Below, in pieces: positions 5,293 to 35,303 of a DNA stretch of 64,000 bases (positions are counted from its first letter, which is position 1; each line of letters starts with the position of its first letter). Both the position numbers and the translations under genes were made by a program. Source of the stretch: Aureibaculum flavum (GTDB taxonomy: Bacteria > Bacteroidota > Bacteroidia > Flavobacteriales > Flavobacteriaceae); NCBI RefSeq assembly GCF_016406085.1, contig NZ_JAEHFJ010000013.1:1-64000 (forward strand). Reading direction: 5' to 3'. The notes beneath the pieces were generated by a model. It saw only the letters and a list, made by a program, of their open reading frames with translations. It was not told where the DNA came from and did not search any database.

Positions 5293-5323
5293 TTTGTATT
5301 ACTAATTAAAAAGAATATATTTG
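5293..5323 (+). promoter_or_regulatory. Promoter of SusC1 (-33 and -7 boxes)
   Basis: TTTG at 5293-5296 and TATATTTG at 5316-5323 are separated by 19 bases, an exact match to the Bacteroidota TTTG/TAnnTTTG promoter. The -7 box runs into the first TTGG of the operator array, so a bound repressor would block it. The predicted leader before SusC1 is about 215 bases. Confidence 0.8.
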
Positions 5324-5371
5324 GCAAACCAATCTGGTAAACCAATTTGGAGAACCAATTTGGAGAACCAA
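5321..5371 (+). promoter_or_regulatory. Phased operator array A: four TTGG-N4-CCAA units
   Basis: Four 12-bp units start at 5321, 5334, 5347 and 5360, exactly 13 bp apart: TTGGCAAACCAA, CTGGTAAACCAA, TTGGAGAACCAA (twice). The same unit and spacing recur at the promoters of the GntR gene, SusC2 and PL6. The TTGG...CCAA symmetry resembles operators of FadR-subfamily GntR regulators, so binding by the GntR protein at 18821-19531 is inferred. Confidence 0.75.
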
Positions 5372-5546
5372 ATTTTTCTTTGAAATTTAAATACCATTAC
5401 TAAAAATTAATCTATTTAAAAGGTTGATGTATACCTAAAGTAAAGCCACAATATTATTTTGATTTGGAGCAAACTTCAAACTAAAAGATACTTTACCATA
5501 AATGCAATATTTAAAATTATCAAATACTAACTTAAGTTAAATAATT

Positions 5547-8500
5547 ATGATGAAAAACAAAGTAAAATTAGTGAGGGCTTACCTTTTGACTTTCCTGCTT
5601 TTTACAGCAGCTATGGCCAACGCCCAACAAAAAAGCGTTACTGGAAAGGTAACCGCTGCTGATGACGGAATGCCATTACCGGGAGTTAATATTTCCGTAA
5701 AAGGAAGTACTACAGGAGCCTCAACAGATTTTGATGGTTTATATTCAATCGATGTATCTGGTAACGATGCAGTACTTATCTATAGCTTCATCGGTTTTGT
5801 AACCCAAGAAGTGCCAGTGGGTTCACAATCTGAAATTAATGTAATTCTTCAAGCTGACAATAATGAGCTGGATGAAGTTGTTGTGGTTGGATATGGAACT
5901 CGAAAAAAGAGTGATATTACTGGAGCTGTATCTTCAGTTAAGTCTGAAGAATTAACTGCATTTCCCGTAGCTAGTGCAGAACAAGCACTTCAAGGACGTG
6001 CAGCCGGTGTTGTTGTGCAATCTAATAATGGTGGTGAACCTGGAGCTCCTATCAACATAAAAATTAGAGGAAATACTTCTATTAATGCAAGTAGCTCACC
6101 TCTAATTGTTGTAGATGGTTTTGTAGGTGCAAGTATGCCACAAGCGAACGACATTGAATCTATGGAAGTGTTGAAAGATGCGTCTGCAACAGCCATATAT
6201 GGTTCTAGAGGTTCAAATGGTGTGGTTTTAGTAACTACTAAAAAAGGTAAAAGTGGTAGATTAAACGTTGAGCTTAACACTTCTTATGCAGTTCAAAATG
6301 TTTCTAACAGATTGGATTTACTTAATGCAAATGAATTTACTGATTATCAAAACCAGGTTAGAGCTAACAATGGTGTTTCTTCAAGTTACCCACAAGGTAC
6401 TGCTGATACTGACTGGCAAGACTTAATTTATTCTACAGGTAGTACTCAGAATCACCAACTTTCTTTTTCAGGTGGTAGTGATAAAATTAATTTTTATGCT
6501 TCTACCAATTATTTTAAACAAGATGGGATTATTATAAATTCTGATTATATCAAACTATCATTCTTGTCAAATATTGATGCACAAGTTACAGATAAGTTAA
6601 AATTAGGTATGAACCTTTCAGGAAATAGATCAACTAAAAATGGTGCCTCTACTAAATCAGACGGTTCTGTTTCTGCGGGTGGAGATGACATCATTACATT
6701 AGCAATGAGATATGCACCAGACCAACCAGTATATAATGATGATGGTAGTTATAATTTCGGTAATACTGTAGGAGATCCAGTTGATAATCCATATGCAATT
6801 GCTAAAGAAAGAATAGACGAAACTAAAGCTGATAACTTTAGAGCGAATTTTTATGCAAATTATGATATTATAGAAAATCTTACTTTTAAGACTACATTTG
6901 GCTTTAGTACTGATAATTCTACTAATGGAATTTACTTACCAAAAGTATTGACGCAGACTGCAGGTGGAGACGGAGGAAGAGCTATAGTTGAAACTGATAA
7001 AAAAACTAGTGTTTTGAGCGAAAACTACTTAACCTATAATACAGAGTTGGGAAAAGGAAATTTAACTTTATTAGCTGGTTACTCTTATCAAAAAACTGTT
7101 TCAGAAAATTTTTATTCAGAAGCAACAGGCTTTATTACAGATGCTTTTTCTTATTACGGTCTAGGCTCTGCTACAAATGTATTACAGCCTGATTCTTCAA
7201 TTTCAACAGTAGAAATTCAATCTCAATTCGGTAGGGTTAACTACGATTATGATGATAAATATTTACTAACGGCTACTGTAAGACGAGATGGAGCTTCTAA
7301 TTTTGCAGCAAATGAAAAATACGCAATTTTTCCTTCAGCAGCTATTGGTTGGAAAATGTCGAATGAAAGTTTTCTAAAAGATAGTGAAACTATATCTAAC
7401 TTAAAATTAAGAGCTAGTTATGGTGTAACTGGTAACCCATCTATTGGTGCTTACGAATCTTTAGCTAGATTTGAAACACTATATGCTTCTAGCAATGGAG
7501 AAACCGTCAGTGCAATTACACCAGAACAACCTGAAAACCCAGATTTAAAATGGGAATCTTCTTACCAAACAAATATCGGTGTAGACTTAGGTTTCTTAAA
7601 TAATAGATTTACACTTTCGTTAGATTATTATAATATTGATACTAAAGATTTAATTTTAACTGACAATAGTATAACTGAATATTTAGGATATACAGGAGAT
7701 GACATTTTAGCGAATGTAGGTGAGATTAATAATAAAGGATTTGAAATTGCTTTAAGTACTAGAAATATATCTACTGATAATTTTAGATGGACTACAGATT
7801 TCAATTGGGCAACTAATAAAAACGAAGTGGTACAATTAGTTAACAATGCAGATTTATTTTACAATGCTGCTCCAAGCTACTTTAGTCATGATAGAAGTTA
7901 TGTTTTAAGAGTTGGTGAAGAAGTTGGACTTTTCTGGGGCTATGACTACGCTGGTGTTTTTCAAGGCGGATCAGCACCAACAGGTACTGCAACTTTATCA
8001 GGTGGTGTAGCAGGTGACCCATTGTTCGTAGATCAAGATAGTAGTGGTGATATTACTGAAGCTGATAGAACAACTATAGGTAACCCTAATGCAGATTACA
8101 CTTTTGGTATCACGAATAACTTTACTTACAAGAATTTTGACATGAGTATCTTTTTTCAAGGTTCACAAGGTGGAGATATTTTCAATATGACTAATGTACA
8201 GTTGACTAACGGAGATGCAAATACTACTAGAGACTATTTTAATAGTGCTTGGACATCTTCTAATACTGACACTAACACTCCTCGCGTTGGAAACAATAGT
8301 AATAGAGAAATTTCTTCTCGTTTTGTTGAGGACGGAAGTTATGTTAGATTAAAAAATATAGCAGTTGGTTATAATCTACCTTCAGATGTTATAGAAAAAT
8401 TAGGAATGGAAAATATAAGATTGTCTTTTAGTGCACAAAACTTATTGACTTTCACAAATTATTCAGGCTTAGATCCAGAAGTGAGCTACTTTGGTAGAGG

Positions 8501-8600
8501 TGGAAATAACAACACATCGCAGAATACAGCTCAAGGGTTTGATTTTGGGAATTATCCAACAGTTAAGTCTTTTAATTTTAGTCTTAATATTAAATTTTAA
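5547..8600 (+). CDS. SusC-family TonB-dependent outer-membrane transporter (pair 1)
   Basis: A 1017-residue SusC/RagA-type transporter. In order: signal peptide (cleavage near AMANAQQ), carboxypeptidase-D-like regulatory domain (VTGKVTAADDGMPLPGVNISVKG), a TonB-box-like segment (DEVVVVGYGTRKK), plug domain (about 115-235, with VVDGF and IESMEVLKDASATAIYGSRGSNG) and a 22-strand beta-barrel ending in aromatic F (SLNIKF). It works with the SusD lipoprotein encoded 27 bases downstream to take up oligosaccharides. The operator array upstream suggests co-regulation with the alginate operons. The GH88 hydrolase downstream suggests a ligand carrying an unsaturated uronate. The exact glycan cannot be read from sequence. 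Confidence 0.93.
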   Translation: MMKNKVKLVRAYLLTFLLFTAAMANAQQKSVTGKVTAADDGMPLPGVNISVKGSTTGASTDFDGLYSIDVSGNDAVLIYSFIGFVTQEVPVGSQSEINVILQADNNELDEVVVVGYGTRKKSDITGAVSSVKSEELTAFPVASAEQALQGRAAGVVVQSNNGGEPGAPINIKIRGNTSINASSSPLIVVDGFVGASMPQANDIESMEVLKDASATAIYGSRGSNGVVLVTTKKGKSGRLNVELNTSYAVQNVSNRLDLLNANEFTDYQNQVRANNGVSSSYPQGTADTDWQDLIYSTGSTQNHQLSFSGGSDKINFYASTNYFKQDGIIINSDYIKLSFLSNIDAQVTDKLKLGMNLSGNRSTKNGASTKSDGSVSAGGDDIITLAMRYAPDQPVYNDDGSYNFGNTVGDPVDNPYAIAKERIDETKADNFRANFYANYDIIENLTFKTTFGFSTDNSTNGIYLPKVLTQTAGGDGGRAIVETDKKTSVLSENYLTYNTELGKGNLTLLAGYSYQKTVSENFYSEATGFITDAFSYYGLGSATNVLQPDSSISTVEIQSQFGRVNYDYDDKYLLTATVRRDGASNFAANEKYAIFPSAAIGWKMSNESFLKDSETISNLKLRASYGVTGNPSIGAYESLARFETLYASSNGETVSAITPEQPENPDLKWESSYQTNIGVDLGFLNNRFTLSLDYYNIDTKDLILTDNSITEYLGYTGDDILANVGEINNKGFEIALSTRNISTDNFRWTTDFNWATNKNEVVQLVNNADLFYNAAPSYFSHDRSYVLRVGEEVGLFWGYDYAGVFQGGSAPTGTATLSGGVAGDPLFVDQDSSGDITEADRTTIGNPNADYTFGITNNFTYKNFDMSIFFQGSQGGDIFNMTNVQLTNGDANTTRDYFNSAWTSSNTDTNTPRVGNNSNREISSRFVEDGSYVRLKNIAVGYNLPSDVIEKLGMENIRLSFSAQNLLTFTNYSGLDPEVSYFGRGGNNNTSQNTAQGFDFGNYPTVKSFNFSLNIKF

Positions 8601-8627: not shown

Positions 8628-10166
8628 ATGAAAACATATAAATATTTATTCTTATTGATAGGTCTATCAATAATAAGTTGCTCAGACTTAGAAGAAGAGC
8701 CTATAGGGTTATTAGCTCCAGATGGTTTCTTTAAAAACACAACGAACATACAAACAGCCGTAGATGGTTCTTTAACACATGCTATTAATGAAAAATTTTG
8801 GGGAAGAAAACTCTCTATAGCTTTAATGTTAAGATCTGATATGGTAAGTCTTGCTTCTAACGAAACAAGAAGAGTTGAGATGAATGAGTTCACTACTTTA
8901 GGTAGTAATGGAATGATTAGTGAATTTTGGCCAAAAACTTATGAAGGAATTGCCGCCGCTAATCAAGCCATTGCAGGAGCAGAAGATGTTGATGTAGCTG
9001 ATGATATTAAAAACCCGATAACTGCACAAGCTTATTTTTCAAGGGCATTTTATTATTTTCATTTGGTTAGATTATTTGGAGACGTTCCTTACATTGATGC
9101 ACCAATTACAGATGTAGACGCAGCTACTTCTATAAGCAGAACACCTAAAGCTGAAGTTTATGCGAATATTATTGCAGATTTAGAGTATGCGAAAACATGG
9201 TTACCAAATACACAAACATCAAGAGCCACACCTTCTAAAGCAGCTGCAAGTGCTTATTTAGCTTTAGTGTATTTAACAATGGAAAATTGGCAAAAAGCTT
9301 ATGACGAAGCTAAAGAAGTTATTGACAATGCAGGTACATATGACTTAGCATTAGATTCAAATTTTCAAAATTTATTTAATGCAGAAGTAATCGATGGTTC
9401 GAAAGAACCAATATTTGCATTGGATTATAATAATTTTGAAGCTCCTGATAATGCTTACGATCAAATTGCTCCAATGGCAGGTATAAGAGGTGATGATAGA
9501 AATTTAGGTGGTGGATGGTCTGTTGCAGTTCCTACACTAGAGGTTTACACTACATGGGATGCGGGCGATTACAGAAGAGCAGTAAGTATGGATGATGAAG
9601 CTTCTATAAATGGTACAATTGTACCTTATACTCAATTTGACGTTAGTGGACATCAGTTTGCAAAAAACAATCCATATGTTGGAAAATACGCACGTTATCC
9701 TGGTCTTTTTGCTCGTGCAAATGCAAGAGCAACAAGTCATAATTATTCTATGATTCGTTATGCAGAAGTGTTGTTGATTGCGGCAGAAGCGGCAGTAGAA
9801 TTAGGAGATAATGCCTCTGCACTTACCTATATCAATAAAGTAAGAGAAAGAGCAAGAATGGGTGGTGCAACTAAAACTGGTGCAGATTCAGAGTACACTT
9901 TTGCTCCTAGTGCAACGCCAGCAGACCTTACAGGAACTGTTACTGTTGCCGATGTGTTAGAAGAACGTAAATTAGAGTTTGCTTTTGAAGGCATAAGATG
10001 GTATGATATTGCTAGAAGAAAAATGGGAGGGGCACCATACAATGTATTTGATGCTTCTGGTTTAGAAGGAGCCAAACCAGATTTTTCTGCAGATGATTAT
10101 TTATTACCCTTACCTGAAGATGAGTTAGAGAGAAATCCTAATTTAACTCAGAATCCAGGGTACTAA
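8628..10166 (+). CDS. SusD/RagB-family surface glycan-binding lipoprotein (pair 1)
   Basis: A 512-residue SusD homologue with a lipoprotein signal (LSIISCSD, Cys at about 19). It has helical TPR-type repeats, an N-terminal SusD-like region and the usual C-terminal end with LPLPEDELERNPNLTQNPGY. The motifs RAEVLLIAAEA-like (IRYAEVLLIAAEA) and ERKLEFAFEGIRWYDIARR are typical of the family. It caps the SusC partner encoded immediately upstream. A strong terminator at 10204-10243 ends the pair. Family certain; the ligand is unknown, with a uronate-containing glycan being the best guess from context. Confidence 0.93.
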   Translation: MKTYKYLFLLIGLSIISCSDLEEEPIGLLAPDGFFKNTTNIQTAVDGSLTHAINEKFWGRKLSIALMLRSDMVSLASNETRRVEMNEFTTLGSNGMISEFWPKTYEGIAAANQAIAGAEDVDVADDIKNPITAQAYFSRAFYYFHLVRLFGDVPYIDAPITDVDAATSISRTPKAEVYANIIADLEYAKTWLPNTQTSRATPSKAAASAYLALVYLTMENWQKAYDEAKEVIDNAGTYDLALDSNFQNLFNAEVIDGSKEPIFALDYNNFEAPDNAYDQIAPMAGIRGDDRNLGGGWSVAVPTLEVYTTWDAGDYRRAVSMDDEASINGTIVPYTQFDVSGHQFAKNNPYVGKYARYPGLFARANARATSHNYSMIRYAEVLLIAAEAAVELGDNASALTYINKVRERARMGGATKTGADSEYTFAPSATPADLTGTVTVADVLEERKLEFAFEGIRWYDIARRKMGGAPYNVFDASGLEGAKPDFSADDYLLPLPEDELERNPNLTQNPGY

Positions 10167-10325: not shown

Positions 10326-11528
10326 ATGAACATGCCCCTAAAGAAAGCTAAATTTTTAATAATTATAAAATTATTGATCTGTACAACCTTACTATTTACC
10401 TCTTGTAAAAATCCCACAAAAGAGAAAAATAATGAACAGATAACTACAGACTCATTATTAACCCTACGTTATCAAAAAATAGTAAACTATCCTGTTAAAG
10501 ACGATGCATTTCCTAGAAGCATGGATACTACTTCCAAAGAAGTTAGACTAGTGAAATCTAATGATTGGACGAGTGGATTTTATCCTGGAAACTTATGGCA
10601 ACTTTATAAATTAACAAATCAAAATGTCTTTAAAGAAAAAGCCAGTGAATGGACTACCTATATGGAAGACCAAAAAATGAATGCAGGGACCCATGATATG
10701 GGGTTTAAAATGTATTGCAGCTTTGGTGAAGGATATGAAGTAACCAACAATGAGCATTACAAAGATATTCTCATTACAAGTGCTAAAACACTAGCAACAC
10801 GCTTCAATAAAAACGTTGGTGCATTACGATCATGGGATTTCAACAAAGACATTTGGGAGTTTCCGGTAATCATAGATAATATGATGAACTTAGAATTGCT
10901 ATTTGAAGCTACTAAAATGTCTGGTGATAGCATATACCACAAAATAGCAGTAAAACATGCTAATACTACCTTAAAAAATCAATTTAGAGCAGACAATAGT
11001 GTTAATCACGTAGTTGTTTATGATACCATTAATGGCAATGTGAAAATGAAAGTTACGCACCAAGGTTTCAACGATGACTCATCTTGGGCAAGAGGTCAAA
11101 GTTGGGCAATTTATGGATTTACTATGGCATATAGATACACTAAAGATCCAGCCTATTTGGCACAGGCAGAAGCTACAGCAACGTTTTTTATGGAACATCC
11201 TAATTTACCCGAAGATGGTATCCCATATTGGGATTTTAACCATCCTGATATACCAAATGTTCCTAGAGATGCTTCTGCAGCAACTATTTTTGCATCGGCC
11301 CTATTTGAAATGTATAATTTTACTAAGAATGAGGTCTATCTCGATTTTTCGAATAAAATTTTAGCTAATTTACAGACTTCTAATTATATTTTAGATAAAG
11401 ATATTGAGGCACCATTTATTCTAAATCACAGCACTGGAAACGGCCCAAAAAATGATGAAATGGATGTCCCTATAAATTATGCCGACTATTATTTCTTAGA
11501 AGCTCTTTTACGAAAAAATGAATTTTAA
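10326..11528 (+). CDS. GH88 unsaturated uronyl hydrolase, lipoprotein
   Basis: A 400-residue glycoside hydrolase family 88 protein that would remove a terminal 4,5-unsaturated uronate left by a polysaccharide lyase. It has a lipobox with Cys at 27 (LFTSCK). Two aspartates match the family's catalytic pair: D124 in HDMGF and D184 in IIDNMMNLELL. The DDSSWARGQSWAIYG, GIPYWDF and PRDASAA motifs are typical of the alpha/alpha-barrel. It follows susCD1 with a terminator in between. GH88 enzymes normally act on glycosaminoglycan, ulvan or similar unsaturated oligomers; alginate degradation usually uses PL15/PL17 exolyases instead. Its position behind an alginate-type operator is therefore noteworthy. 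GH105 is a less likely alternative. Confidence 0.88.
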   Translation: MNMPLKKAKFLIIIKLLICTTLLFTSCKNPTKEKNNEQITTDSLLTLRYQKIVNYPVKDDAFPRSMDTTSKEVRLVKSNDWTSGFYPGNLWQLYKLTNQNVFKEKASEWTTYMEDQKMNAGTHDMGFKMYCSFGEGYEVTNNEHYKDILITSAKTLATRFNKNVGALRSWDFNKDIWEFPVIIDNMMNLELLFEATKMSGDSIYHKIAVKHANTTLKNQFRADNSVNHVVVYDTINGNVKMKVTHQGFNDDSSWARGQSWAIYGFTMAYRYTKDPAYLAQAEATATFFMEHPNLPEDGIPYWDFNHPDIPNVPRDASAATIFASALFEMYNFTKNEVYLDFSNKILANLQTSNYILDKDIEAPFILNHSTGNGPKNDEMDVPINYADYYFLEALLRKNEF

Positions 11529-14099: not shown

Positions 14100-14105
14100 A
14101 ATTAG

Positions 14106-15176: not shown

Positions 15177-15196
15177 TTGCTTAAACGTTTAACCAA
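15177..15196. promoter_or_regulatory. LacI operator O1 (kdgK side)
   Basis: TTGCTTAAACGTTTAACCAA is a near-perfect palindrome centred on CG (15186/15187), 40 bases before the kdgK start codon. It is the imperfect twin of O2. Confidence 0.8.
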
Positions 15197-15269: not shown

Positions 15270-15288
15270 CTTAAACGTTTAAGCAAAT
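15265..15288. promoter_or_regulatory. LacI operator O2 (lacI side)
   Basis: A perfect 24-bp palindrome with core GCTTAAACGTTTAAGC, centred on CG at 15276/15277. The centre-to-centre distance to O1 is exactly 90 bp. Confidence 0.85.
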
Positions 15289-16375: not shown

Positions 16376-17140
16376 TTATATTCCTAAAGCTTGACCTCCA
16401 CCAATTTGGATAGTTTCTGCTGTTAAAAAAGAGGCATCATCACTCGCTAAGAACGAAACAACTGATGCTACTTCTTCTGGCTGACCTAATCTTCCTAATA
16501 AAATACTATTTTTCCATGTTGCAAAAACTTCTGGCTTAGTAGATTTTATTTGAGCATGGAAAGGCGTATCAATTGTACCTGGAGATACTGCATTTACTCT
16601 AATTCCATATTCTGCCAAATCTTTAGCTAATGCTCTAGTTATTGCATGTACGCCTGCTTTTGAAGTACCATAAATACCTGCACCTGGTCCACCAGCATTC
16701 CAACCCGCATTAGATGTATAGTTAATTATTGAAGCATTCTCTCCTTTTTTAAGGAAAGGAATAGCTGCTCTTGAAGCAAAAAATACTGAATCAAGGTTTA
16801 AAGCCATAACAAATCTATAAAACTCAGTTGTCATTTCTTCAAATCTAGATCTTCCACCTAAACCACCTGCATTATTAACAAGTACATCAATTCTACCGTA
16901 CTTTTCTCCAATTTTGTTGATGTTTGAAGTTACTTCATCTTCATTAGTAACGTCAAAGCCATAATATTCTGCCGTAATTCCTGCAGAAGTCAACTCTTCA
17001 ACACATTTAGCTCCTGCCTCATCTTCAATACCGTTTAAAATTACGATATAGCCATCTTTTCCTAATCTTTTTGCTACTTGAAAACCAATTCCACCTGTCG
17101 CTCCTGTTATTACAGCAACTTTTTTGTTTAAATTACTCAT
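16376..17140 (-). CDS. SDR-family 4-deoxy-L-erythro-5-hexoseulose uronate (DEH) reductase
   Basis: A 254-residue classical short-chain dehydrogenase. It has the cofactor motif TGATGGIG near the N-terminus, NNAGG, a catalytic Ser in YTSNAG, YGTSKAG (Tyr and Lys of the active site) and the C-terminal IQIGGGQ. Such enzymes reduce DEH, the monomer released from alginate, to KDG with NADH or NADPH. Substrate assignment rests on context: it follows the hexuronate-type MFS importer by 28 bases and shares a GntR-led operon inside an alginate locus. Residue NGIEDE after the second beta strand does not settle NADH versus NADPH. SDR fold certain; DEH as substrate is likely. Confidence 0.83.
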   Translation of the reverse strand: MSNLNKKVAVITGATGGIGFQVAKRLGKDGYIVILNGIEDEAGAKCVEELTSAGITAEYYGFDVTNEDEVTSNINKIGEKYGRIDVLVNNAGGLGGRSRFEEMTTEFYRFVMALNLDSVFFASRAAIPFLKKGENASIINYTSNAGWNAGGPGAGIYGTSKAGVHAITRALAKDLAEYGIRVNAVSPGTIDTPFHAQIKSTKPEVFATWKNSILLGRLGQPEEVASVVSFLASDDASFLTAETIQIGGGQALGI

Positions 17141-19544: not shown

Positions 19545-19556
19545 TTGGTTAACCTC
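19545..19556. promoter_or_regulatory. Possible extra GntR half-operator next to the GntR start
   Basis: TTGGTTAACCTC matches ten of twelve positions of the operator unit and lies 14 bases before the GntR start codon. As a single degenerate copy it could be chance. Confidence 0.3.
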
Positions 19557-19808: not shown

Positions 19809-19846
19809 TTGGTTTTCCAAACTGGTTAACCAGTTTGGAAAACCAA
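19809..19846. promoter_or_regulatory. Phased operator array B: three units forming a 40-bp palindrome, upstream of GntR
   Basis: Units TTGGTTTTCCAA, CTGGTTAACCAG and TTGGAAAACCAA start at 19809, 19822 and 19835 (13-bp period). Together with one flanking base each side they form a perfect 40-bp palindrome (19808-19847). The right-hand CCAA is part of CAAATATA (19844-19851), which on the minus strand reads TATATTTG, the -7 box for the GntR operon. Confidence 0.8.
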
Positions 19847-24778: not shown

Positions 24779-26374
24779 TTAGTAACCGCTGTTCTGCGTA
24801 TAAAAATTAGGTAAATTGTCCATTTCTCTTTGTGGAAAAGGAAGATATTTCTTTTCATTTGTATAAAACAAACTGTTTTGTTGCGAAAATCTTGTTAAAA
24901 CATCATCAGCTTCACCAAATCTTATTAAATCATACAAACGTTGATTTTCGTATACAAATTCAACTCTTCGCTCATCTAATAATTGTTGCTTGGTTAAATT
25001 TGCCACCTCTTCAAGACCTGCTCTTAATCTTACTTGGTTGAAAGCATCGATAGCTCTAGAATCTGTAGTACTATCATCACCTCCTAAAATTGCTTCTGCA
25101 TACAATAATAACACATCTGCATATCTTAAAACCACCCAGTCATTATCTCCAATCTCTCCTTCTGTTGGGAATTTAGCATTAAAAGTATCATTTGTTTCAA
25201 CTGTTGGATTATAAGATAAAGCATCAATACTAGCATAGAATCTCACCGGTTGTAATTCTGGATTCATAACCTCTAAAAAATCTAGTGTCGCAATATTAAT
25301 ACCGTTAGATGGTCCTTGTAAAGTCATCGCAAAACTATGCGATTCTGAATCTGTTTCTACTTGATCGTTTAAACCACTATCACTAGTAACATAATTATCA
25401 CTACTTACCAAATCATAAGCAATTGAAAAAACGACTTCATCATTAATTTCAAGAGCCGGACTATTTGACCATGAACCATCAAGTACCCCATCTGTGTACC
25501 CATCAGAAATTGCATTACCTAGTACATGACCATAATCTATAACTAAATTGGCATAGTATTCCGCATCTGTTAAAAGATCAACTGAATTATCCAAAGGGTC
25601 TGCATTGAATTCAAACTGTTCAGCATTACTTCTTTCTGTATAAATTAAATCATAATTATAAGCACCATTATTTTCCACAACCGAAGCTAATAAAAGTTCG
25701 GCTTCAGAATAATTAGGACTCGGCTGACTTAAATATGCTTTTGCAGCTAAACAAATAGCGGCTCCTTCAGACGGACGATATCTATTTTGATCTACACCAT
25801 TTAAATATGCAATTGAAGTTTTAAAATCGGCTATAATTTTCTCGTAAACATTAGCCTCTGGTAATTGAGGATACTCTAAAGCTTCATCCTTTGTGATGTC
25901 TAAAACTTTATCTATATAAGGAATGTTCTGATAAGCTCTCACCAAATTAAAATGACATAAAGCTCTCATAAAATAAGCTTCCCCAACCGTATACTGTTGA
26001 TTTTCTGGAGCTAAAAAACGATTATCAATAATTGTGTTTGCATGCTTAATAGTCGCCATGTTGTTCGAATAATAGGTGGCTACATCTCCATTATTTGGAT
26101 CTACATTATAAGCATTAATTGCTGGGAAATTTCCATTTTCAGAATTCGCCCTTACATTATCAGATCTTAATTCTGTTAGTAGAAATTCGTTCGCCGGAAC
26201 CTTTTGATACGCATCTAAAACTCCATTGGCCAACAATTCAAATCCGTTATCAGTTTGTAGTAACTCCTCTATTGAAAGAGCTGTAGGGTTACTAAGATCT
26301 AGTTCTTCCTCACAGCTTGCAAATAAAGCTACAAAAGAAAAACAAACTATTATATTTTTATATCTATTCTTCAT
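24779..26374 (-). CDS. SusD/RagB-family lipoprotein (pair 2, alginate)
   Basis: A 531-residue SusD homologue with a lipoprotein signal (FASCEEEL, Cys about 21). Family features include YTVGEAYFMRALCHFNLVRAYQNIPY, VVLRYADVLLLYAEA, LLDERRVEFVYENQRLYDLIRFG and the ending LPFPQREMDNLPNFYTQNSGY. It caps the SusC2 transporter, whose gene ends 6 bases upstream in the same operon. Downstream genes are two PKD lipoproteins and two PL7 alginate lyases, so alginate oligosaccharides are the expected ligand. Confidence 0.93.
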   Translation of the reverse strand: MKNRYKNIIVCFSFVALFASCEEELDLSNPTALSIEELLQTDNGFELLANGVLDAYQKVPANEFLLTELRSDNVRANSENGNFPAINAYNVDPNNGDVATYYSNNMATIKHANTIIDNRFLAPENQQYTVGEAYFMRALCHFNLVRAYQNIPYIDKVLDITKDEALEYPQLPEANVYEKIIADFKTSIAYLNGVDQNRYRPSEGAAICLAAKAYLSQPSPNYSEAELLLASVVENNGAYNYDLIYTERSNAEQFEFNADPLDNSVDLLTDAEYYANLVIDYGHVLGNAISDGYTDGVLDGSWSNSPALEINDEVVFSIAYDLVSSDNYVTSDSGLNDQVETDSESHSFAMTLQGPSNGINIATLDFLEVMNPELQPVRFYASIDALSYNPTVETNDTFNAKFPTEGEIGDNDWVVLRYADVLLLYAEAILGGDDSTTDSRAIDAFNQVRLRAGLEEVANLTKQQLLDERRVEFVYENQRLYDLIRFGEADDVLTRFSQQNSLFYTNEKKYLPFPQREMDNLPNFYTQNSGY

Positions 26375-26380: not shown

Positions 26381-29300
26381 TTAAAATTGAAAGTTAATCC
26401 CTGCTGATATTGTTCTTACTACTGGGCCATCTCCTCTTTGATAGCCTGCTGTTAGTGGTGTATTAGCATTATCTGATGTTTGCCCGGCTGCTTCTGGGTT
26501 AAATCCTTCATAACCTTTAGCTGTAAAGTAAAGTAAATTTTCACCCGTAATATATATTCTAAGTCTATCTATATTATTCCTTGACGTAAATGATTCTGGT
26601 AAAGAAAAACCAAGTGTTATATTTCTTAAAGTTACATAAGAAGCATCCTGTATATGATCATTAGTAAATCTTCTATGGACCGTTAAATCTCTATCCGGAA
26701 AATTAGCAACCTCATTTACAGCAGACTCACTAGCGTAATACAACTGATCTAAATCGGCAACTCTTACTTCAGCACCATGAGACCCTTGCCATTGAAATGA
26801 AAAATCAAATTCTTTTAGTCTAAAATCTGAATTGATTCCCCAAGTAAAGTCAGGATATGGACTCCCTAACTCCGTTCTATCTTCATCATCAATAATACCA
26901 TCATTATTCAAATCTTTTACATAAACATCTGCAAAATCATTATTAAACCTATTAAATGGATTGTCTACCCACTCTAACGGAATCTCTTTTTCGTAAACCC
27001 AACCATAAAAAGAAGTTATGGGCTGTCCTACTCTAGCTATAAACTCTGTAGGTCTTGTATCTTGATCAATTCTAGAAATAATTTGGTCATTATTACCTAA
27101 ACTTTGAACGGTATTTCTATTTAAAGAAAATTGTCCTGAAGCTAACCAGCTGAACTTTTCAGTAGAGATTATTCTAGAATTTAATTCTATTTCGACCCCT
27201 TCATTTTTAACCTCACCTATATTTTGCAACCAATTATCCGTTCCATAAACGCCAGGCACTGGGGCAAAAAGAATTAAATCTTTACTTGTTCTGGTATAAT
27301 AATCTACTGCTAGATTTAAAAGGCCTCTACCAAAGGTAACATCTATACCAGGGTTAAATTCTATTAGTTTTTCCCAACCTAAATTTTGATTTGCCAAAGT
27401 CACCCCTTTAACTCCGGTCTGACCATTATACCCAATCGTACTGTAAGCCTCTTCAAATCTATAAAGTGATTCAAATATATTGTTAGATATTTCATTAGAT
27501 CCAGAAATACCATAACTGGCTCTTAACTTTAAAAAGGTTACAAATTCACTTTCGGATAAGAAATTCTCTTTTGACAAAATCCAACCTACAGAAGCAGCAG
27601 GAAAGAAACCAAATCTCGAATTAGAACCAAATCTAGTACTACCATCTGTACGAGCAGATAATTGTACTAAGTACTTTTCATCAAAATTATAATCTAATCT
27701 TCCAAAATAGGAGACTAACTTATCAGTTCCATTGTCGGTATATGTAGTGCCTCCATCTGCAAGGGCAATATTATTATTGAAATCATTGGTATACCCTACG
27801 GCCTCAGATTCTTGTGTATAAAAATCTCTTTGTGTAAACTCAAACCCTAGTATGGTATTAAAATTATGTTTACCAAAGTCTTTCTTGTATTTAAGAAGTG
27901 ATTCGAAAGCATATTGATTTAATTCATCTCTACCTTCTAATCTATATGACTCTTGTTCTCTATTTTCTTGTCCATATAAATAGTCCGCTTCATTTGCTTT
28001 ATTATGTCTAAAAACAGTTGAAATCGTTTGTCTAAAATTAAGACCTTTTGCTAATTCAAAATCAAGATAAGAAGATGCGTTTAAACTCAATTTCTTTTTT
28101 GTTCTAGATCTTTCAAGAAAGTGTACTAATGGATGCACATTTTTTGTAGTTGATAACGTTAAACCACCAGAGGTTAAATTACTAACCAATGGAAGCCCTG
28201 TATTAGGGTCTCTAGCTATTGCTCTCGGATCATTAGGATCAACTGTAAACACATGATCAAAAGCTCTTGAAAACCCGTAACTACCAACACCTATATTTTC
28301 AAATTGAGCTCCCGCATCTCCAGGATCTGACTGTGTAATGTAGTTTAAATGATCTTCATTTAAGTAAAGAGGTACATGACCTAATTGTCTTAATGGATCT
28401 GTAAATCTTGCTGGTAGTTTGTCTTGATCGTTATAATTAACACGTATACTTGCACCGTACTTTATTTTTTTGTTTTTCGATTTACTATCAACCTTTATTC
28501 TAGCATTGTATTTCTTAAAATTATCGGTTAATGCAATACCTTCATCTTCAAGATACCCCAAAGATGCGGTGTAACTTGTTAATTCAGACCCACCTCTTAC
28601 GGCAAATGAGTGACTTGTTATTACACCTCCATTAAAAATTTCATCTTGCCAATTTTTTTCACCACCTCCCAATGAAGCTATAAAATCCATGGCTTCAAGT
28701 TCTGCATAAGCTGAATTATAATCACCATTAATCCTATCATAGTTTTGACTGTCGGACGAAATTGAACTTACCACATCTTGTAAACCATCTAACCTTGACC
28801 TTTCATCACTTATTGAGGTATTAAAGTTATCGTTTTTATTAGCAAATTTGTAACCTGTAAATGTGTTGTAAGAAAATTTAGTTTGCCCAGAAACACCTTT
28901 TTTAAGTGTCACCAAAATAACACCATTCGCACCACGCGAACCGTATATTGCTACCGATGAAGCATCTTTTAAAACACTGATTGATTCAATATTATTATTA
29001 TCAATAGAACCTAAAATATCAGCTTCTGTACCTAAAACAACACCATCAACAACAATTAAAGGTGATGATGAACCCGTAATAGAACCAGGCCCTCTTAACG
29101 TAATTTTAGGGTCTCCACCAGCTTCCGATGACGCTACTTGAATTCTTAATCCCGCTACTTTCCCTTGTAATGCATCTTCCACACGAGACACCGCAACATC
29201 CTGAAGGTCAGCACCAGAAACTTTGGTTAAAGCACTGGTTATATTTTTCTTTTTTTGATCTCCGTAGGCCACAATAACAACCTCATCCAATTGATTATTA

Positions 29301-29596
29301 TCTTGAACTAAGGATACATTAATTGTTTTATTATCTGATACGGTAATTGTTTGAGAGACGTACCCAATAAATGAAAATTGAAGAATATCACCTTTTTTAG
29401 CTTCAATGGAATATAACCCATCAAAATCTGTAACAACACCTTTAACAGTGCTCACAATTAAAACCGTTGCTCCGGGGATTGGCAACTGATCTTTCGCATC
29501 TATAACTGTACCGGAAATTGTGTAATTTTCTTGTGCAAATAAGGTAACACCTACAAGCAAAGCTACAAACAGAGATAGTTTAGTTTTAAATTTCAT
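26381..29596 (-). CDS. SusC-family TonB-dependent transporter (pair 2, alginate)
   Basis: A 1071-residue SusC/RagA transporter: signal peptide ending near LFAQENY, carboxypeptidase-D-like domain (ISGTVIDAKDQLPIPGATVLI), TonB-box region (LDEVVIVAYGDQKKK), plug (about 115-230, with VVDGVVLG and IESISVLKDASSVAIYGSRGANG) and C-terminal barrel ending SAGINFQF. It imports alginate oligomers into the periplasm with SusD2, by context. It heads the operon susC2 - susD2 - PKD - PKD - PL7 - PL7. The promoter upstream carries a three-unit operator array of the GntR type, 264 bases before the start codon. Confidence 0.93.
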   Translation of the reverse strand: MKFKTKLSLFVALLVGVTLFAQENYTISGTVIDAKDQLPIPGATVLIVSTVKGVVTDFDGLYSIEAKKGDILQFSFIGYVSQTITVSDNKTINVSLVQDNNQLDEVVIVAYGDQKKKNITSALTKVSGADLQDVAVSRVEDALQGKVAGLRIQVASSEAGGDPKITLRGPGSITGSSSPLIVVDGVVLGTEADILGSIDNNNIESISVLKDASSVAIYGSRGANGVILVTLKKGVSGQTKFSYNTFTGYKFANKNDNFNTSISDERSRLDGLQDVVSSISSDSQNYDRINGDYNSAYAELEAMDFIASLGGGEKNWQDEIFNGGVITSHSFAVRGGSELTSYTASLGYLEDEGIALTDNFKKYNARIKVDSKSKNKKIKYGASIRVNYNDQDKLPARFTDPLRQLGHVPLYLNEDHLNYITQSDPGDAGAQFENIGVGSYGFSRAFDHVFTVDPNDPRAIARDPNTGLPLVSNLTSGGLTLSTTKNVHPLVHFLERSRTKKKLSLNASSYLDFELAKGLNFRQTISTVFRHNKANEADYLYGQENREQESYRLEGRDELNQYAFESLLKYKKDFGKHNFNTILGFEFTQRDFYTQESEAVGYTNDFNNNIALADGGTTYTDNGTDKLVSYFGRLDYNFDEKYLVQLSARTDGSTRFGSNSRFGFFPAASVGWILSKENFLSESEFVTFLKLRASYGISGSNEISNNIFESLYRFEEAYSTIGYNGQTGVKGVTLANQNLGWEKLIEFNPGIDVTFGRGLLNLAVDYYTRTSKDLILFAPVPGVYGTDNWLQNIGEVKNEGVEIELNSRIISTEKFSWLASGQFSLNRNTVQSLGNNDQIISRIDQDTRPTEFIARVGQPITSFYGWVYEKEIPLEWVDNPFNRFNNDFADVYVKDLNNDGIIDDEDRTELGSPYPDFTWGINSDFRLKEFDFSFQWQGSHGAEVRVADLDQLYYASESAVNEVANFPDRDLTVHRRFTNDHIQDASYVTLRNITLGFSLPESFTSRNNIDRLRIYITGENLLYFTAKGYEGFNPEAAGQTSDNANTPLTAGYQRGDGPVVRTISAGINFQF

Positions 29597-29859
29597 ATTG
29601 ATTCTTATTATGTTCGTAATTATTTGATTAGTTAATTTTAAAAACCAATGAATAACTTTAAACTTTTACTTCAATACAAAAAAAACAATCTCTCTTTAGA
29701 TAAATCAAAATTCTACATATCTTAATTTTAAAGTGGTTTTACACCAATTAAAAATAATTAGAAATAAAACAAAAATTAAATCTATGTTTTATTTAATTGT
29801 AAAATTGTTCTTTTAATAATAGGCTTCAAATTACTTGCTGTTAAGTAACTGTAGTTATT

Positions 29860-29897
29860 TTGGTTTACCAAACTGACTAACCAGATTGGTAAACCAA
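29860..29897. promoter_or_regulatory. Phased operator array C: three units upstream of SusC2
   Basis: Units TTGGTTTACCAA, CTGACTAACCAG and TTGGTAAACCAA start at 29860, 29873 and 29886 (13-bp period). The arrangement matches array B, with a central unit beginning CTG and ending CAG. The distal CCAA overlaps CAAATATA at 29895-29902. Confidence 0.8.
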
Positions 29898-29902
29898 ATA
29901 TA
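29895..29902 (-). promoter_or_regulatory. -7 box of the SusC2 operon
   Basis: Minus-strand TATATTTG, overlapping operator array C. The -33 region is A/T-only without TTTG. The predicted leader is nearly 300 bases. Confidence 0.6.
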
Positions 29903-30446: not shown

Positions 30447-32738
30447 TTATTTGTAATAATAAGAACCTACCCAAGTATAGCTCTTATCGTTTATTTTTAA
30501 TATATGTTTAGCTTCTTTTGAAGCGTTTGTATTTGCTGTTATAAACAGTTTAGTATTTCCTCTAATAGTTGTTATTGAAATAGCTGTATACTCAGCTGTA
30601 TCTAAGACCACTTTTAGTGCTATAATACTACTTTTTGAATTCACAGCAGATTCTGAAACTGGACTATAACTCCCATGTGCTTCAATAGTAGAAACAAAAA
30701 GTGTGTTTTTCGTATTTTTTCGTCTGAGCATTATTGCAGCTTCTCTACGTAAGTTAAATTCTGGATCATTTGCTCCAATTCTGGTAAAAAGTATTTCATC
30801 ATTAACATTGGTTGCAGCTGTTAAGGTGTAAAATTTACCTTCGTTCAACCAAGAAAATTTAGTATCATTTTGATTCGCTTTTGCTGAACCTTCCACATAT
30901 AAATGTTGGTATCCATTTTTATTTCCTAGAGGTTTTAAAGTAGTAGGTATTTTATATTCGAAATTTGAATTTAATACCTGACCTAAAAAATAATACGGAA
31001 AATCATATTGATTCGCTTTATTAGAAACCACTTTCATAATATCTAATACATATGGTTTTTCTAATTCATCATCTTTAATAATTGCCATAGTACGCAACAT
31101 TTCAGTCCCAGGATATGCATTGACTTCTTTTGCACTTACAACTTTTACAAACTCATTATCTGAAGAAAAATAATTTAGTTCAGGATTATGCTTACTTCCA
31201 ATTTCAAACTCGCCATTATAATGCGAATTTTCATTTTGCGTTACTGTATTATGAGCAATAGTTTGTTTTGCCCATGTTTTGTTTTCTTTCAGATAATTTC
31301 CGCCACCTTTTTGTTCAATATTTACAAAACGTGCTAAACCATAATCTTGAATTATTTCTTCACCATTTTCGTACAATGAATACGATAATTTATCATAATG
31401 ACCATGACTAGAACCTTGAGCAGCATATTTAAAAACAAGTTCTATATCTTCATTTCTTAAAATACCAACACCTCCTTGTTTTCCATCAGGCCCATCAGAT
31501 AAATTAATCGATTTTTTTAAGAAAGGTTTTGTCTTTCCATTTTTTATACCCAGTGCTACCGCCAAACCAGAATCATCTAGCAATACTTTATTTTGTTTTT
31601 CTGCAATACTTAATAATCCCGGATCTTGTGCTCCAAAATGATATGAAATATCTACTGCAGTAACTAAAGCATCGTTATAATAGGACATTCCTTTTTGACC
31701 ATCGTTAAGTGGAAAAAATTCTCCATCTGCATCTGATAAATTTAAAAGTGCATTAATAGATTTTAAAAGGACACCTTCTTTATATTCAAAAATCTTTAAT
31801 TCTGGTTTAACATTATGTAATCCTTCAGCAAAAACTAAAAAAGGATACATGGCATAACGTTGATAATATGGACCTTCATTATAATATCCATCTGGAGAAA
31901 AAGGTTCTTCTATATTCGCTAAAAAACCAGCCGTACCGTCTTTATTAATAAACCCACCATCATCATCTTTAGCTGTTTTATCCATTTCAGCTCCTTTAAT
32001 ACCATACAATGCACGATCTATTAATACTTCATCATTCATTACTAGACCAATCATTCCCACTGCTGCATTCCCCCATGTACTATGATTGTGGACTCTCTGG
32101 TAAAACTGTGGATTACCAACAGAAATGAAATCTGCAAAGGGTTTAAAAAGATTTGTTTCTAGTTTGTTACGCTCTTCTTCGGTTAAATAGTTATAGATAC
32201 AATCATAAGCTTGACTCACATAAACCAACCAATTAGAATCGTTTAAACATTGCCAAAATAATTTACCTCTTGCATAAGATCTTGTTTTTGGATGTACAGG
32301 TAATGTTTTATACATCGCTTCATATTGCATCAACATATCTTTTACATACTTCGCATATTTTTCATCATTTAAAATTTGATATAAGACACCTGCTTTTTGT
32401 AATACAATCATGTTACGTTTATGACGAACATGTGTATAACCACCAGAGTAATCTTTTGGAATTGGCGTATCTATTCCTAATGCAATTTCCGCATCTATTT
32501 CTTCTTGAACCGCTTTTAAGGTATTGTCAAAAATGGGAATATTACCTAATTGCTTTCTGATACTTTCTACTCCTGCTTTAGTTAAAATAAGTTTGGGATG
32601 ATCGCCATCATTTAATGTAGTTTTATCGACTTTTTCACCACCCTGTTCATTCGTTGACGATTCTTTACATCCAACTATAGCAACAATTATAAGTAGTGTT
32701 ATAATTCGAAATAATTGGGTTTTACTATTTGATCTCAT
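30447..32738 (-). CDS. PL17 oligoalginate exolyase, lipoprotein
   Basis: A 763-residue protein with an N-terminal alginate-lyase (alpha/alpha toroid) domain and a C-terminal heparinase II/III-like beta-sandwich domain, the PL17 architecture. It has a lipobox IVAIVGCKESS (Cys about 24). Residues matching the PL17 catalytic set are Asn-His in VHNHSTWGNA (about 216-219), Tyr in EGPYYQRY (about 287) and His/Tyr in GSSHGHYDKL (about 445). It releases unsaturated monouronate from alginate oligomers, probably in the periplasm. KdgF follows directly and PL6 precedes it by 41 bases, forming a saccharification unit. PL15 is unlikely given the motif spacing. Confidence 0.9.
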   Translation of the reverse strand: MRSNSKTQLFRIITLLIIVAIVGCKESSTNEQGGEKVDKTTLNDGDHPKLILTKAGVESIRKQLGNIPIFDNTLKAVQEEIDAEIALGIDTPIPKDYSGGYTHVRHKRNMIVLQKAGVLYQILNDEKYAKYVKDMLMQYEAMYKTLPVHPKTRSYARGKLFWQCLNDSNWLVYVSQAYDCIYNYLTEEERNKLETNLFKPFADFISVGNPQFYQRVHNHSTWGNAAVGMIGLVMNDEVLIDRALYGIKGAEMDKTAKDDDGGFINKDGTAGFLANIEEPFSPDGYYNEGPYYQRYAMYPFLVFAEGLHNVKPELKIFEYKEGVLLKSINALLNLSDADGEFFPLNDGQKGMSYYNDALVTAVDISYHFGAQDPGLLSIAEKQNKVLLDDSGLAVALGIKNGKTKPFLKKSINLSDGPDGKQGGVGILRNEDIELVFKYAAQGSSHGHYDKLSYSLYENGEEIIQDYGLARFVNIEQKGGGNYLKENKTWAKQTIAHNTVTQNENSHYNGEFEIGSKHNPELNYFSSDNEFVKVVSAKEVNAYPGTEMLRTMAIIKDDELEKPYVLDIMKVVSNKANQYDFPYYFLGQVLNSNFEYKIPTTLKPLGNKNGYQHLYVEGSAKANQNDTKFSWLNEGKFYTLTAATNVNDEILFTRIGANDPEFNLRREAAIMLRRKNTKNTLFVSTIEAHGSYSPVSESAVNSKSSIIALKVVLDTAEYTAISITTIRGNTKLFITANTNASKEAKHILKINDKSYTWVGSYYYK

Positions 32739-32779: not shown

Positions 32780-35128
32780 TTAATACATAAGTTTCATTAC
32801 TAAATTCTCTTCTGTTTTTATTTTCCCAGAATTTGAAAAGCTATTTTCAGATGCTACATTATTTTTTGCTCCCCATAAAATAGAAACAAATTGAACACTA
32901 TTATTAGTAAATGTATTTTTATTAATAGTTACATTCACAATCCCTCTATGATTTAATAAAATTCTATTCTTTTCTTGAGCTCCACAGTTAGTGAACGTAC
33001 TGTTGGTTACTAATAAATTACCACCAATAGTTGATTCATCATAACCACCACGATAATAATCAATCACATTTTGTTTTACGTTTGTAAATTGACAATTATC
33101 TATTGTTAAGTACTCCGTATTATAATCTCCTCTGTCATTTGTTTCTTCCGATAATTCAATTCCGTTTTCACAATCAGAAATAGCCGTGTTTTTAAAAGTT
33201 ATTTCCTCAGCAAATGTCTGCTTATATGCCTTTAAGACATAATTAAAGTTGTTAATTTCACAACCAGAAACGGTCAATCCAAAATGATTTGACATATTTT
33301 CTTTAAGGTTAGAAAAAGCTTGTTGCTTATCATTTCCCGTTAGTATTACATTCTTAATAGTTAAGATTCCGTAAGGATTTAATTCAAATACTGGCGTATT
33401 GTCTGCTCCTGTAAAAACAATTTCAGCTTTCTCGCTATCTTTTGATTGAATTGTAATTATTTTATTAATTACTATTGATTTTGAAACGTTATATGTTCCT
33501 GGACTTAAAGAGATCACATCTCCTGCTTTTGCTGCGGCTATTTTAGTTTCTAACTCCCCATTAGTTGCCGTAACCTCAATAACATTAGGTACAGCAGTTT
33601 CTACAACATTAGAATACCAATCGGCTCCATATTTCGTTTTATCTAAAATAGCTGGATCTTTAAACTCCCCTTGAACTGCTGCTCCAATTGAATTTTTATC
33701 TTCTCTAGAATTTCCAAAAAGATCTTTTGTTATTTTTTCAAATCCAAAACCTTTATAAATTTCAAATTCGCTCGTTAATTTAGGTAAAAATATGTTTTCA
33801 CTAACTTTAGTCAATTCAAATTCAGTTGCCCCAATCCTTTCTGGATTATCAAAAGCGACACCTTGGTTATTAACAATGTTACTTTTAAAGGTAACACCAT
33901 CAGCCTTATCATGTTCAATAATTATATTTTTATCTCCAATTTTATTATAAATAATATTATTGACAACCTCTGTTCTAAGTGCCCTAGCAGAACGTATTTC
34001 TGATTTAGGCAGTACATCTGCTTGAGCGATATTTGTTCCTACTCCAAATTGCCATGGCGATTTACAATTAACATAGGTATTATATGCAACCACAACATCA
34101 GTAACTTGATTATATCTATTTAATGGTGATTTTGGAATTCCATTCATAACCGCTAGCGGGCTTCTAAAATTTTCTCCGATAATATTATAAAAATAGTTAT
34201 TGATAATCCAATGACCAGTGTTCACAATTCTAATTCCTCCAAATTGTTTGTTTTTACCGTCACCAATAAAATAATTACCATCTATTGTGGCATAATTTCC
34301 ATGACGAGTAACCACAGAACCTTCACTTTTATAAAAGACATTATTTTTAATTAGATTGAAATTTGTTTTACTTGAAATGATTTCAACTTCCCCATTACAT
34401 TCTTCAAATAAATTATTTGCAATAGTGGTATTGCTTGGACTCATAGAAGTAAAACTACTTCCTAATTGAATGGTTTCTCCTCTAGCACCTCCTTTTCTGG
34501 GTCTTGGTCCGAAATGATTATTGACAATTTGATGATAATTTCTAATACTTTGATTTCCTTTTAAATCTACCCTAACTGTTGGACCACCATTCGTTTTACC
34601 AGCAATATAACAATGATCTAGTTTGTTATGTGTACCATAAAACTGAACCCAAAGATTATCTTGATCTCGTTCGAGGTTATTAAAATCAAGAATTACACAA
34701 TTAGAAACACTACTGTAATTAGCAACACTATCTTTACTAGTTCTAAATGCAATTACATTTTCAGTAGGAGAATGTCCGTTTCTAAAAAACAATCCATTTA
34801 CTTTTAAATAATCTCCACTCATTTCTAAATTAGAAACACCTTCAATAAAAACCTTACCTGGCGTTTCTGCTCTTAATGTAATTGGAGCTTTTTCAGTACC
34901 CTCACCTAAAAATTTAATTTGAACATCTTTCCAAACACCATTTGCTAAAACAATATTATCACCTGGCCCTGCATTTGAAATGGCCTCATCTAATTCCGCT
35001 ATATTCTTTACGACACCAACGGTAACATCTGTCTTTAGATCGCCCTTACAGCTAATCATCATAATTATTAAACTAAAAAAAAGTAAGCCTTTTCTAATAT
35101 TTAATTGGGAGTTTAAAATTGTATTCAT
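32780..35128 (-). CDS. PL6 alginate lyase, two parallel beta-helices, lipoprotein
   Basis: A 782-residue PL6 enzyme from the ATG at 35128 (MNTILNSQLN). The longer in-frame start at 35179 would add 17 residues ahead of the signal peptide. It has a lipobox MMISCKGD. The N-terminal parallel beta-helix contains a lysine in SSKTNFN (about 254) and an arginine in VVTRHGN (about 276), the pair expected to act as base and acid in PL6. A second beta-helix fills the C-terminal third (about 510-782), as in two-domain exo-type or MG-specific PL6 enzymes. It heads the PL6 - PL17 - KdgF operon, with an operator array 150 bases upstream. Confidence 0.9.
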   Translation of the reverse strand: MNTILNSQLNIRKGLLFFSLIIMMISCKGDLKTDVTVGVVKNIAELDEAISNAGPGDNIVLANGVWKDVQIKFLGEGTEKAPITLRAETPGKVFIEGVSNLEMSGDYLKVNGLFFRNGHSPTENVIAFRTSKDSVANYSSVSNCVILDFNNLERDQDNLWVQFYGTHNKLDHCYIAGKTNGGPTVRVDLKGNQSIRNYHQIVNNHFGPRPRKGGARGETIQLGSSFTSMSPSNTTIANNLFEECNGEVEIISSKTNFNLIKNNVFYKSEGSVVTRHGNYATIDGNYFIGDGKNKQFGGIRIVNTGHWIINNYFYNIIGENFRSPLAVMNGIPKSPLNRYNQVTDVVVAYNTYVNCKSPWQFGVGTNIAQADVLPKSEIRSARALRTEVVNNIIYNKIGDKNIIIEHDKADGVTFKSNIVNNQGVAFDNPERIGATEFELTKVSENIFLPKLTSEFEIYKGFGFEKITKDLFGNSREDKNSIGAAVQGEFKDPAILDKTKYGADWYSNVVETAVPNVIEVTATNGELETKIAAAKAGDVISLSPGTYNVSKSIVINKIITIQSKDSEKAEIVFTGADNTPVFELNPYGILTIKNVILTGNDKQQAFSNLKENMSNHFGLTVSGCEINNFNYVLKAYKQTFAEEITFKNTAISDCENGIELSEETNDRGDYNTEYLTIDNCQFTNVKQNVIDYYRGGYDESTIGGNLLVTNSTFTNCGAQEKNRILLNHRGIVNVTINKNTFTNNSVQFVSILWGAKNNVASENSFSNSGKIKTEENLVMKLMY

Positions 35129-35278
35129 TGTAGTGAAATCATTAAGTTTAATAGTTAGTTTGGTTATGATTTTACCCATATTTCAAAAGGGAAAATTGAT
35201 AAAATATATTAATTTTTAAGAAATTAAAACTTTAGTATTAAATCACTTTTAGTTCAAAGTTTTAGATCAAAACACAAA

Positions 35279-35303
35279 TTGGTTAACCAGTTTGGTTTAC
35301 CAA
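35279..35303. promoter_or_regulatory. Phased operator array D: two units upstream of PL6
   Basis: TTGGTTAACCAG starts at 35279 and TTGGTTTACCAA at 35292, again 13 bp apart. The second unit overlaps CAAATATA (35301-35308), the minus-strand -7 box TATATTTG. No third unit is seen on the proximal side. Confidence 0.78.

Follow-up and report, generated by a model that had tools for sequence, protein, structure and literature searches.

The window, by which we mean the whole 64,000-nt stretch analysed here (Aureibaculum flavum, contig NZ_JAEHFJ010000013.1, positions 1 to 64,000), carries an alginate-utilisation cluster, and our subject is a set of four arrays of a short inverted repeat, TTGG-N4-CCAA, that sit at four promoters of this cluster and very probably serve as operators of a GntR-type regulator encoded among the same genes. 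With gene identities assigned by Pfam and NCBIfam profile searches, the cluster opens with SusC1, SusD1 and GH88 on the forward strand, followed by a reverse-strand group encoding 2-keto-3-deoxygluconate (KDG) aldolase, PFK, YhcH and KDG kinase, and by the gene of a LacI-family protein (LacI1); it continues with the SDR, MFS and gntR genes (reverse strand), two PL7 genes, a PKD protein gene, SusD2 and SusC2 (also reverse), and closes with PL17 and PL6 (reverse), the gene of a second LacI-family protein (LacI2), and a TRAP transporter with uronate genes. Across the window, Rfam at its gathering thresholds reported nothing but one tRNA. The features discussed below are as follows (genes from Pfam unless another source is added, arrays from a motif scan, boxes and the lone unit read from the sequence).

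5316-5323, + strand: SusC1 -7 box, TATATTTG, its 3' end doubling as the beginning of operator unit 1
5321-5371, + strand: SusC1 operator array, four units (5321, 5334, 5347, 5360)
5547-8600, + strand: SusC1, TonB-dependent receptor, first gene of an apparent SusC1-SusD1-GH88-like operon
8628-10166, + strand: SusD1
10326-11528, + strand: GH88-like protein, perhaps an unsaturated uronyl hydrolase
16376-17140, - strand: SDR oxidoreductase, 3' of gntR and the MFS gene, likely a reductase of 4-deoxy-L-erythro-5-hexoseulose uronate (DEH), a function suggested by the published alginate pathway
17169-18755, - strand: MFS transporter, 3' of gntR
18821-19531, - strand: gntR, FCD/FadR-subfamily, AusR-like, proposed binder of the four arrays (Pfam FCD and GntR domains, array co-occurrence, neighbourhood)
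19545-19556, - strand: lone degenerate unit, GAGGTTAACCAA, just 5' of the gntR start
19809-19846, - strand: array of the distal gntR promoter, three units (19809, 19822, 19835)
19844-19851, - strand: -7 box of the distal gntR promoter, TATATTTG
20199-21119, - strand: PL7 alginate lyase (a)
21122-22033, - strand: PL7 alginate lyase (b)
22079-23572, - strand: PKD-domain protein
24779-26374, - strand: SusD2
26381-29596, - strand: SusC2, first gene of an apparent operon running from SusC2 and SusD2 to PL7
29860-29897, - strand: SusC2 operator array, three units (29860, 29873, 29886)
29895-29902, - strand: SusC2 promoter -7 box, TATATTTG
30447-32738, - strand: PL17-like oligoalginate lyase, apparently transcribed from the PL6 promoter (Pfam; its NCBIfam score is below the cut-off of that model)
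32780-35179, - strand: PL6-type lyase (Pfam Chondroitinas_B)
35279-35303, - strand: PL6-PL17 operator array, two units (35279, 35292)
35301-35308, - strand: PL6 promoter -7 box, TATATTTG

An earlier note on this DNA had described the four arrays as strictly phased at 13-bp steps, with four, three, three and two units, and had stated that the window holds no others; every unit lies where it was placed, and the motif scan likewise bears out the absence of any further array in the window. Eight of the 12 units match TTGGNNNNCCAA perfectly. The SusC1 array departs from it by a single mismatch, at 5334 (none at 5321, 5347 and 5360), and the PL6 array by one at 35279 (none at 35292), while in both three-unit arrays it is the middle unit that is degenerate, a feature on which the note was silent: the perfect units at 19809 and 19835 of the gntR array flank one with two mismatches at 19822 (CTGGTTAACCAG), and those at 29860 and 29886 of the SusC2 array flank one with three at 29873 (CTGACTAACCAG). 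The distal gntR array is, in addition, a perfect 38-bp palindrome, about 278 bp 5' of the start codon. Measured against 60 dinucleotide shuffles of the window, pairs of units 13 bp apart with at most one mismatch per unit number four (three at SusC1, one at PL6) versus a shuffle mean of 0.017 and maximum of 1, and with at most two mismatches per unit they number 10, versus a mean of 1.5 and maximum of 8. The only distances up to 60 bp found between sites with at most one mismatch in the window are 13 bp (four times), 26 bp (four times) and 39 bp (once).

The earlier note had proposed that the whole genome be scanned at this spacing. In the 4.75 Mb of the organism's own genome (40 contigs), with the motif read backwards as the control, the two-unit pattern with at most three mismatches overall occurs at 36 places versus 17 for the reversed pattern. 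All four places with at most one mismatch belong to the SusC1 or PL6 arrays, which do stand out; the four with two mismatches are two in the gntR array and two on other contigs (C1 and C35), and the SusC2 array falls, at three mismatches, into a class that is mostly background, so that the gntR and SusC2 arrays do not stand out by the two-unit pattern alone. These two are singled out because each has two perfect units 26 bp apart together with a -7 box. The single-site pattern TANATTTGGNNNNCCAA, with at most one mismatch, gave 30 forward and 45 reverse matches in the genome versus 33 and 33 for its reversed form, and since these counts lie close to the control, no regulon members beyond the window are claimed and the idea of a single-site regulon outside it was dropped. 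Seven exact matches to TANATTTGGNNNNCCAA were found: those of the four arrays, two on other contigs, and one at 63685-63701. The last is a lone TATATTTGGTGACCCAA unit with a -7 box on the reverse strand, directly 5' of a gene for a LuxR-type response regulator (62993-63673) and near molybdopterin oxidoreductase genes; it is probably a chance occurrence or the site of another regulator.

The anatomy of the arrays becomes clearer when related loci are considered, for which we took the 80 highest-ranking among 427 related GntR genes from named genomes, with up to 10 kb on each side. Arrays numbered 128, in 76 of the 80 loci, and 120 remained, in 74 loci, after eight lying in coding sequence were dropped; these loci were picked by GntR similarity, so this count provides no independent test of co-occurrence. 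A scaffold of Aureibaculum luteum (L075) is 99.99% identical to the window over 20.7 kb. Arrays of the relatives have two to four units, with the unit consensus TTGGTNNACCAA, and their spacing is nearly invariant: among 221 pairs of sites with at most one mismatch and no more than 60 bp apart, 194 are separated by 13, 26 or 39 bp (138, 53 and 3 pairs, respectively), versus 27 at all other distances taken together, with no more than four at any single one; all distances from 14 to 25 bp sum to seven pairs, versus the 138 at 13 bp. A further regularity, that only one of the two outer bases facing each other at a junction of units would deviate, was tried and rejected as too weak and phylogenetically confounded, deviation on both sides occurring at four of 128 junctions.

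The position of the arrays relative to the promoter is equally regular. At all four promoters of the window TATATTTG abuts the outermost unit, as the earlier note had observed, and since the box lies upstream of the array, the units begin near the expected transcription start and continue into the 5' leader. When each array of the relatives is oriented by its better -7 box, TAnnT immediately adjoins unit 1 in 109 of the 120 non-coding arrays, compared with three at the far end, and, joined with the first bases of unit 1, reads TAnnTTTG. A T-rich element, TTT(T/G), has its 3' end 19 bp 5' of the TAnnT box, a spacing that corresponds to the -33/-7 geometry of Bacteroidetes promoters. The leaders left between array and start codon measure 175 nt for SusC1 (5372-5546) and 263 nt for SusC2 (29597-29859); in the relatives the corresponding leaders range from 4 to 505 nt, are mostly of 100-331 nt, and cluster near 190 and 290 nt.

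As to the genes behind the arrays, 112 arrays of the relatives have such a box, and SusC-type genes follow 68 of them, gntR 20, PL17 three, PL6 three, PL7 two, a PKD gene one, an MFS gene one and other genes 12, with none within reach in two cases. Ten proteins from among the other genes were scanned, and comprise five PL7-type lyases, three proteins with a secretion sorting domain, one with a lamin-tail domain and one aldehyde dehydrogenase. Arrays of at least three units make up 48 of the 68 SusC-type arrays versus four of the remaining 44, though these come from related species and are not independent. Closer to the regulator gene itself, 36 of 70 relatives have a unit with at most one mismatch within 75 bp of the gntR start (two units in six, one unit in 30), and 21 relatives have a TAnnT box one more 13-bp step 5' of gntR, which gives the impression that unit 1 has either decayed or persisted at that place. 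By comparison with these, the degenerate unit at 19545-19556 of the window has the appearance of a vestige of the proximal operator that some relatives have at gntR.

Whether arrays and regulator travel together was addressed in a phylogenetic profile of 299 genomes sampled evenly from the family, in which the two were searched separately (E <= 1e-30 for the protein, at most one mismatch for an array pair). Arrays were found in 94 genomes, GntR in 74 and both in 73, so that an array pair is present in 73 of the 74 genomes positive for GntR and in 21 of the 225 without it, and the conservation that the earlier note expected of relatives with the same operons is borne out. Among the 21 genomes with arrays and no GntR, 20 have one pair only, a frequency close to that of the reversed-pattern control, which hit 22 of the 299, and at least two pairs occur in 71 genomes, 70 of which encode GntR. 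The sole GntR carrier outside the array set (G094, 52% identity) has arrays with two mismatches about 60 bp from the GntR gene. GntR is present in all 61 genomes positive for PL17, and the 13 GntR genomes with no PL17 match all carry arrays, which therefore track the regulator. The window's own genome (G000) has a single GntR at this threshold; Maribacter and Kriegella, genera near Zobellia, carry the protein at 74-76% identity, and in a sample of 296 genomes from the phylum it was found, at E <= 1e-50, in 11, eight of them in the family. Aureibaculum luteum SM1352 has two more GntR paralogues (L078 and L143, at 78% and 73% identity).

The protein encoded at 18821-19531 is composed of a winged helix (PF00392, 4e-17) and an FCD domain (PF07729, 2.5e-21), the composition of the FadR subfamily of GntR regulators; its best NCBIfam matches, LldR and NanR, are both far under their cut-offs (109.5 bits for the NanR model versus 260). 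The core of the operator unit, TGGT-N2-ACCA, agrees with the TKGT/ACMA half-sites given as the FadR-subfamily consensus in a passage of PMC4494728, and the symmetry and spelling that the note had called FadR-type thus hold. Invariant in all 10 aligned sequences are R41, R51 and R55, at the arginine positions known from FadR, as well as R107, D151, H155, H200 and H222. A metal can accompany the effector in regulators of the FCD type. The part of PMC8012715 that describes the NanR pocket has Arg128, Asp172, His176, His222 and His244 holding N-acetylneuraminate (Neu5Ac) and zinc. The two sets share their spacing from Arg to Asp (44), from Asp to His (4) and between the last two His (22), and differ at the middle step (45 here, 46 in NanR). 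Neu5Ac and KDG of the alginate pathway are both 2-keto-3-deoxy sugar acids, and we infer KDG to be the effector.

Two known systems invite comparison, and a third provides the subfamily background. Dudek et al. 2020 (NAR 48:7786) reportedly describe the AusR regulon of Zobellia galactanivorans. The window shares with that regulon a GntR regulator inside an alginate cluster with SusC/D, PKD, PL7, PL17 and KDG-pathway genes, and operators in several copies at several alginate promoters (four, three, three and two here, one to three for AusR), and differs from it in the four-unit array at SusC1 and in a distal three-unit gntR promoter beside a degenerate proximal unit. Because this arrangement matches AusR of Zobellia, the system appears, by analogy, to be of a kind already known. 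According to passages of PMC7874173 and PMC8286568, AusR of Zobellia is a repressor of alginate genes whose operators come in one, two or three copies; the literature on the Zobellia regulon, to which PMC8073546 also belongs, reports release by alginate metabolites. AusR-type repression and release are proposed here by analogy, and the array over the expected start and the conserved ligand pocket agree with them. Neither the 13-bp phase nor the -7 fusion nor the additional units at SusC appeared in the passages of the AusR literature compared, which do not include the original AusR paper; the strict spacing, the fusion and the family distribution are documented here.

The second system is NanR of Escherichia coli, of which three dimers occupy three tandem repeats, with cooperative binding that relies on an N-terminal extension and is weakened when the spacers are lengthened (passages of PMC8012715). 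The present GntR resembles it as an FCD-type protein with a candidate binding mode of dimers on tandem repeats at close fixed spacing, with metal and carboxylate residues at nearly equal spacings, and with an effector, as proposed, of the same class, a 2-keto-3-deoxy sugar acid. The differences are that the (GGTATA)3 of NanR consists of short direct repeats on which the dimers are offset by about half a turn, versus the 12-bp palindromes at 13 bp found here, and that the 32-residue N-terminal extension of NanR has no counterpart in the window GntR. The claim of the earlier note that multi-copy arrays are foreign to the GntR family was wrong, as both NanR (PMC8012715) and AusR (PMC7874173) are seen to use them in the passages cited. 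With the FadR subfamily, finally, the regulator shares a winged helix joined to FCD and TKGT/ACMA half-sites; typical of that subfamily is one palindrome per promoter, unlike the two to four in phase seen here. A single palindrome is the habit of FadR, UxuR/ExuR, LldR and PdhR.

Taken together, these data suggest, with a probability of roughly 0.92 in our estimation, that the arrays are the operators of the neighbouring FCD/FadR-type GntR, an AusR-type repressor of alginate-utilisation genes, and the alginate regulon that the earlier note had proposed is, from GntR co-occurrence and the target genes, very probable. One repressor dimer would sit on each 12-bp palindrome, and dimers would fill neighbouring units exactly 13 bp apart, touching one another and binding cooperatively, as is suggested by the near-invariance of that spacing. 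As unit 1 and the -7 box have bases in common and the array extends over the expected start and the beginning of the leader, a bound repressor would block RNA polymerase. Alginate breakdown would yield the signal: a cytoplasmic 2-keto sugar acid, of which KDG is the likeliest candidate and its precursor DEH the next, would bind the FCD domain and release the repressor, and the release would switch on SusC1-SusD1-GH88, SusC2-SusD2-PKD-PL7-PL7, PL6-PL17 and gntR-MFS-SDR, the last of these implying autoregulation. The cooperative stacking and the graded response by copy number put forward in the earlier note are both possibilities consistent with what is seen, the former with the spacing and the latter with the unit counts.

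Several observations weigh against this picture or parts of it. No array is present at the KDG-kinase/aldolase operon, which occupies the centre of the cluster. Six of the 80 loci (L078, L113, L142, L143, L144 and L151) have no non-coding array, among them the paralogue L143, which adjoins a copy of SusC1-SusD1-GH88, and since no TTGG array is present at that locus its operator may have changed. No unit with at most one mismatch lies within 75 bp of the gntR start in 34 of the 70 relatives, and proximal autoregulation is thus not general. The three homologues found outside the family in the phylum sample (46-48% identity) have no array near the gene. As to the cooperative part, the GntR domain begins at residue 16, leaving no room for a long extension like that of NanR, and cooperativity would therefore need another contact.

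This last point bears on an alternative in which repressor and operators are the same and the dimers bind independently, additional copies only raising occupancy and the 13-bp step being the tightest packing of palindromes. Besides the missing extension, it would be favoured by the geometry, as 13 bp leaves one spacer base between 12-bp palindromes, near the tightest packing without overlap; yet independent dimers should tolerate looser spacing, of which the seven pairs at 14-25 bp versus 138 at 13 bp give little sign, and in NanR it is longer spacers that weaken binding (PMC8012715, in the passage on spacers). We consider independent binding rather unlikely. A tentative proposal, somewhat less likely than not, is a short helical stack common to Flavobacteriaceae, which would grow from the -7 box onward by one dimer per 13 bp, each turned by about 86 degrees if 10.5 bp make a turn; the number of units would then act as an evolutionary dial, with SusC operons as a rule at a higher setting than gntR or the lyase genes.

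It has also to be asked whether the arrays act in mRNA as well, three-unit arrays forming a stem-loop at the very 5' end of the leader. As RNA, the array of the distal gntR promoter would form a 17-bp hairpin of -26.5 kcal/mol (z -7.4) and that of SusC2 a structure of -20.1 (z -6.9), with weaker folds for SusC1 (-14.2, z -2.8) and PL6 (-9.5, z -2.8). Among 40 distinct three-unit arrays, pairing between the centre bases of unit 1 and those of unit 3 is seen in 102 of 160 cells versus 82 +/- 6 in shuffles, none of 2000 reaching the observed count. However, palindromic DNA will fold as RNA regardless, kinship inflates the pairing count, and a tree of 46 rows offers, for each of the four position pairs, no more than one to three independent pairs on branches with good support, a number too small for a decision; the centres are exactly complementary in 15 of the 40 arrays, and two-unit arrays are common; an additional role in RNA is improbable. 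That a different protein from the cluster binds the arrays, for instance LacI1 or LacI2, would be favoured by the presence of two LacI genes in the cluster, one of them (LacI2, 35550) divergent from the PL6 array, and is the least credible of the explanations considered: LacI2 occurs in 15 of the 299 genomes, nine of which have no arrays, and is lacking from 88 of the 94 array genomes, a distribution (six of 15 LacI2 genomes with arrays) on which it was rejected as an unlikely binder, and LacI1, for which no search of the 299 genomes was made, is considered unlikely for the reason that it has candidate palindromes, TTAAACGTTTAA, of its own.

These CG-centred palindromes, at 15181-15192 and 15271-15282, lie between the LacI1 gene (15302) and the KDG-kinase operon. 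The exact TTAAACGTTTAA 12-mer is present in eight of 20 loci with LacI1 versus one of 60 without it, and a second, LacI-type regulon inside the cluster is likely on these counts. The copy at 15271 is joined to a TATATTTG -7 box, as the TTGG arrays are, and the fusion of operator and -7 box thus appears for two unrelated repressors in the cluster.

To return to the reading that we prefer, an AusR-type repressor acting on phased operators would carry the published AusR model from Zobellia over to 74 of the 299 family genomes examined, about one quarter, and the 13-bp phased TTGG-N4-CCAA starting at the -7 box would provide a signature by which alginate regulons may be recognised in unannotated genomes. 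The near-invariant spacing makes cooperative GntR assembly without the extension of NanR directly testable, and the helical stack, if true, would represent a mode of contact unlike that of NanR, since the N-terminal extension is absent.

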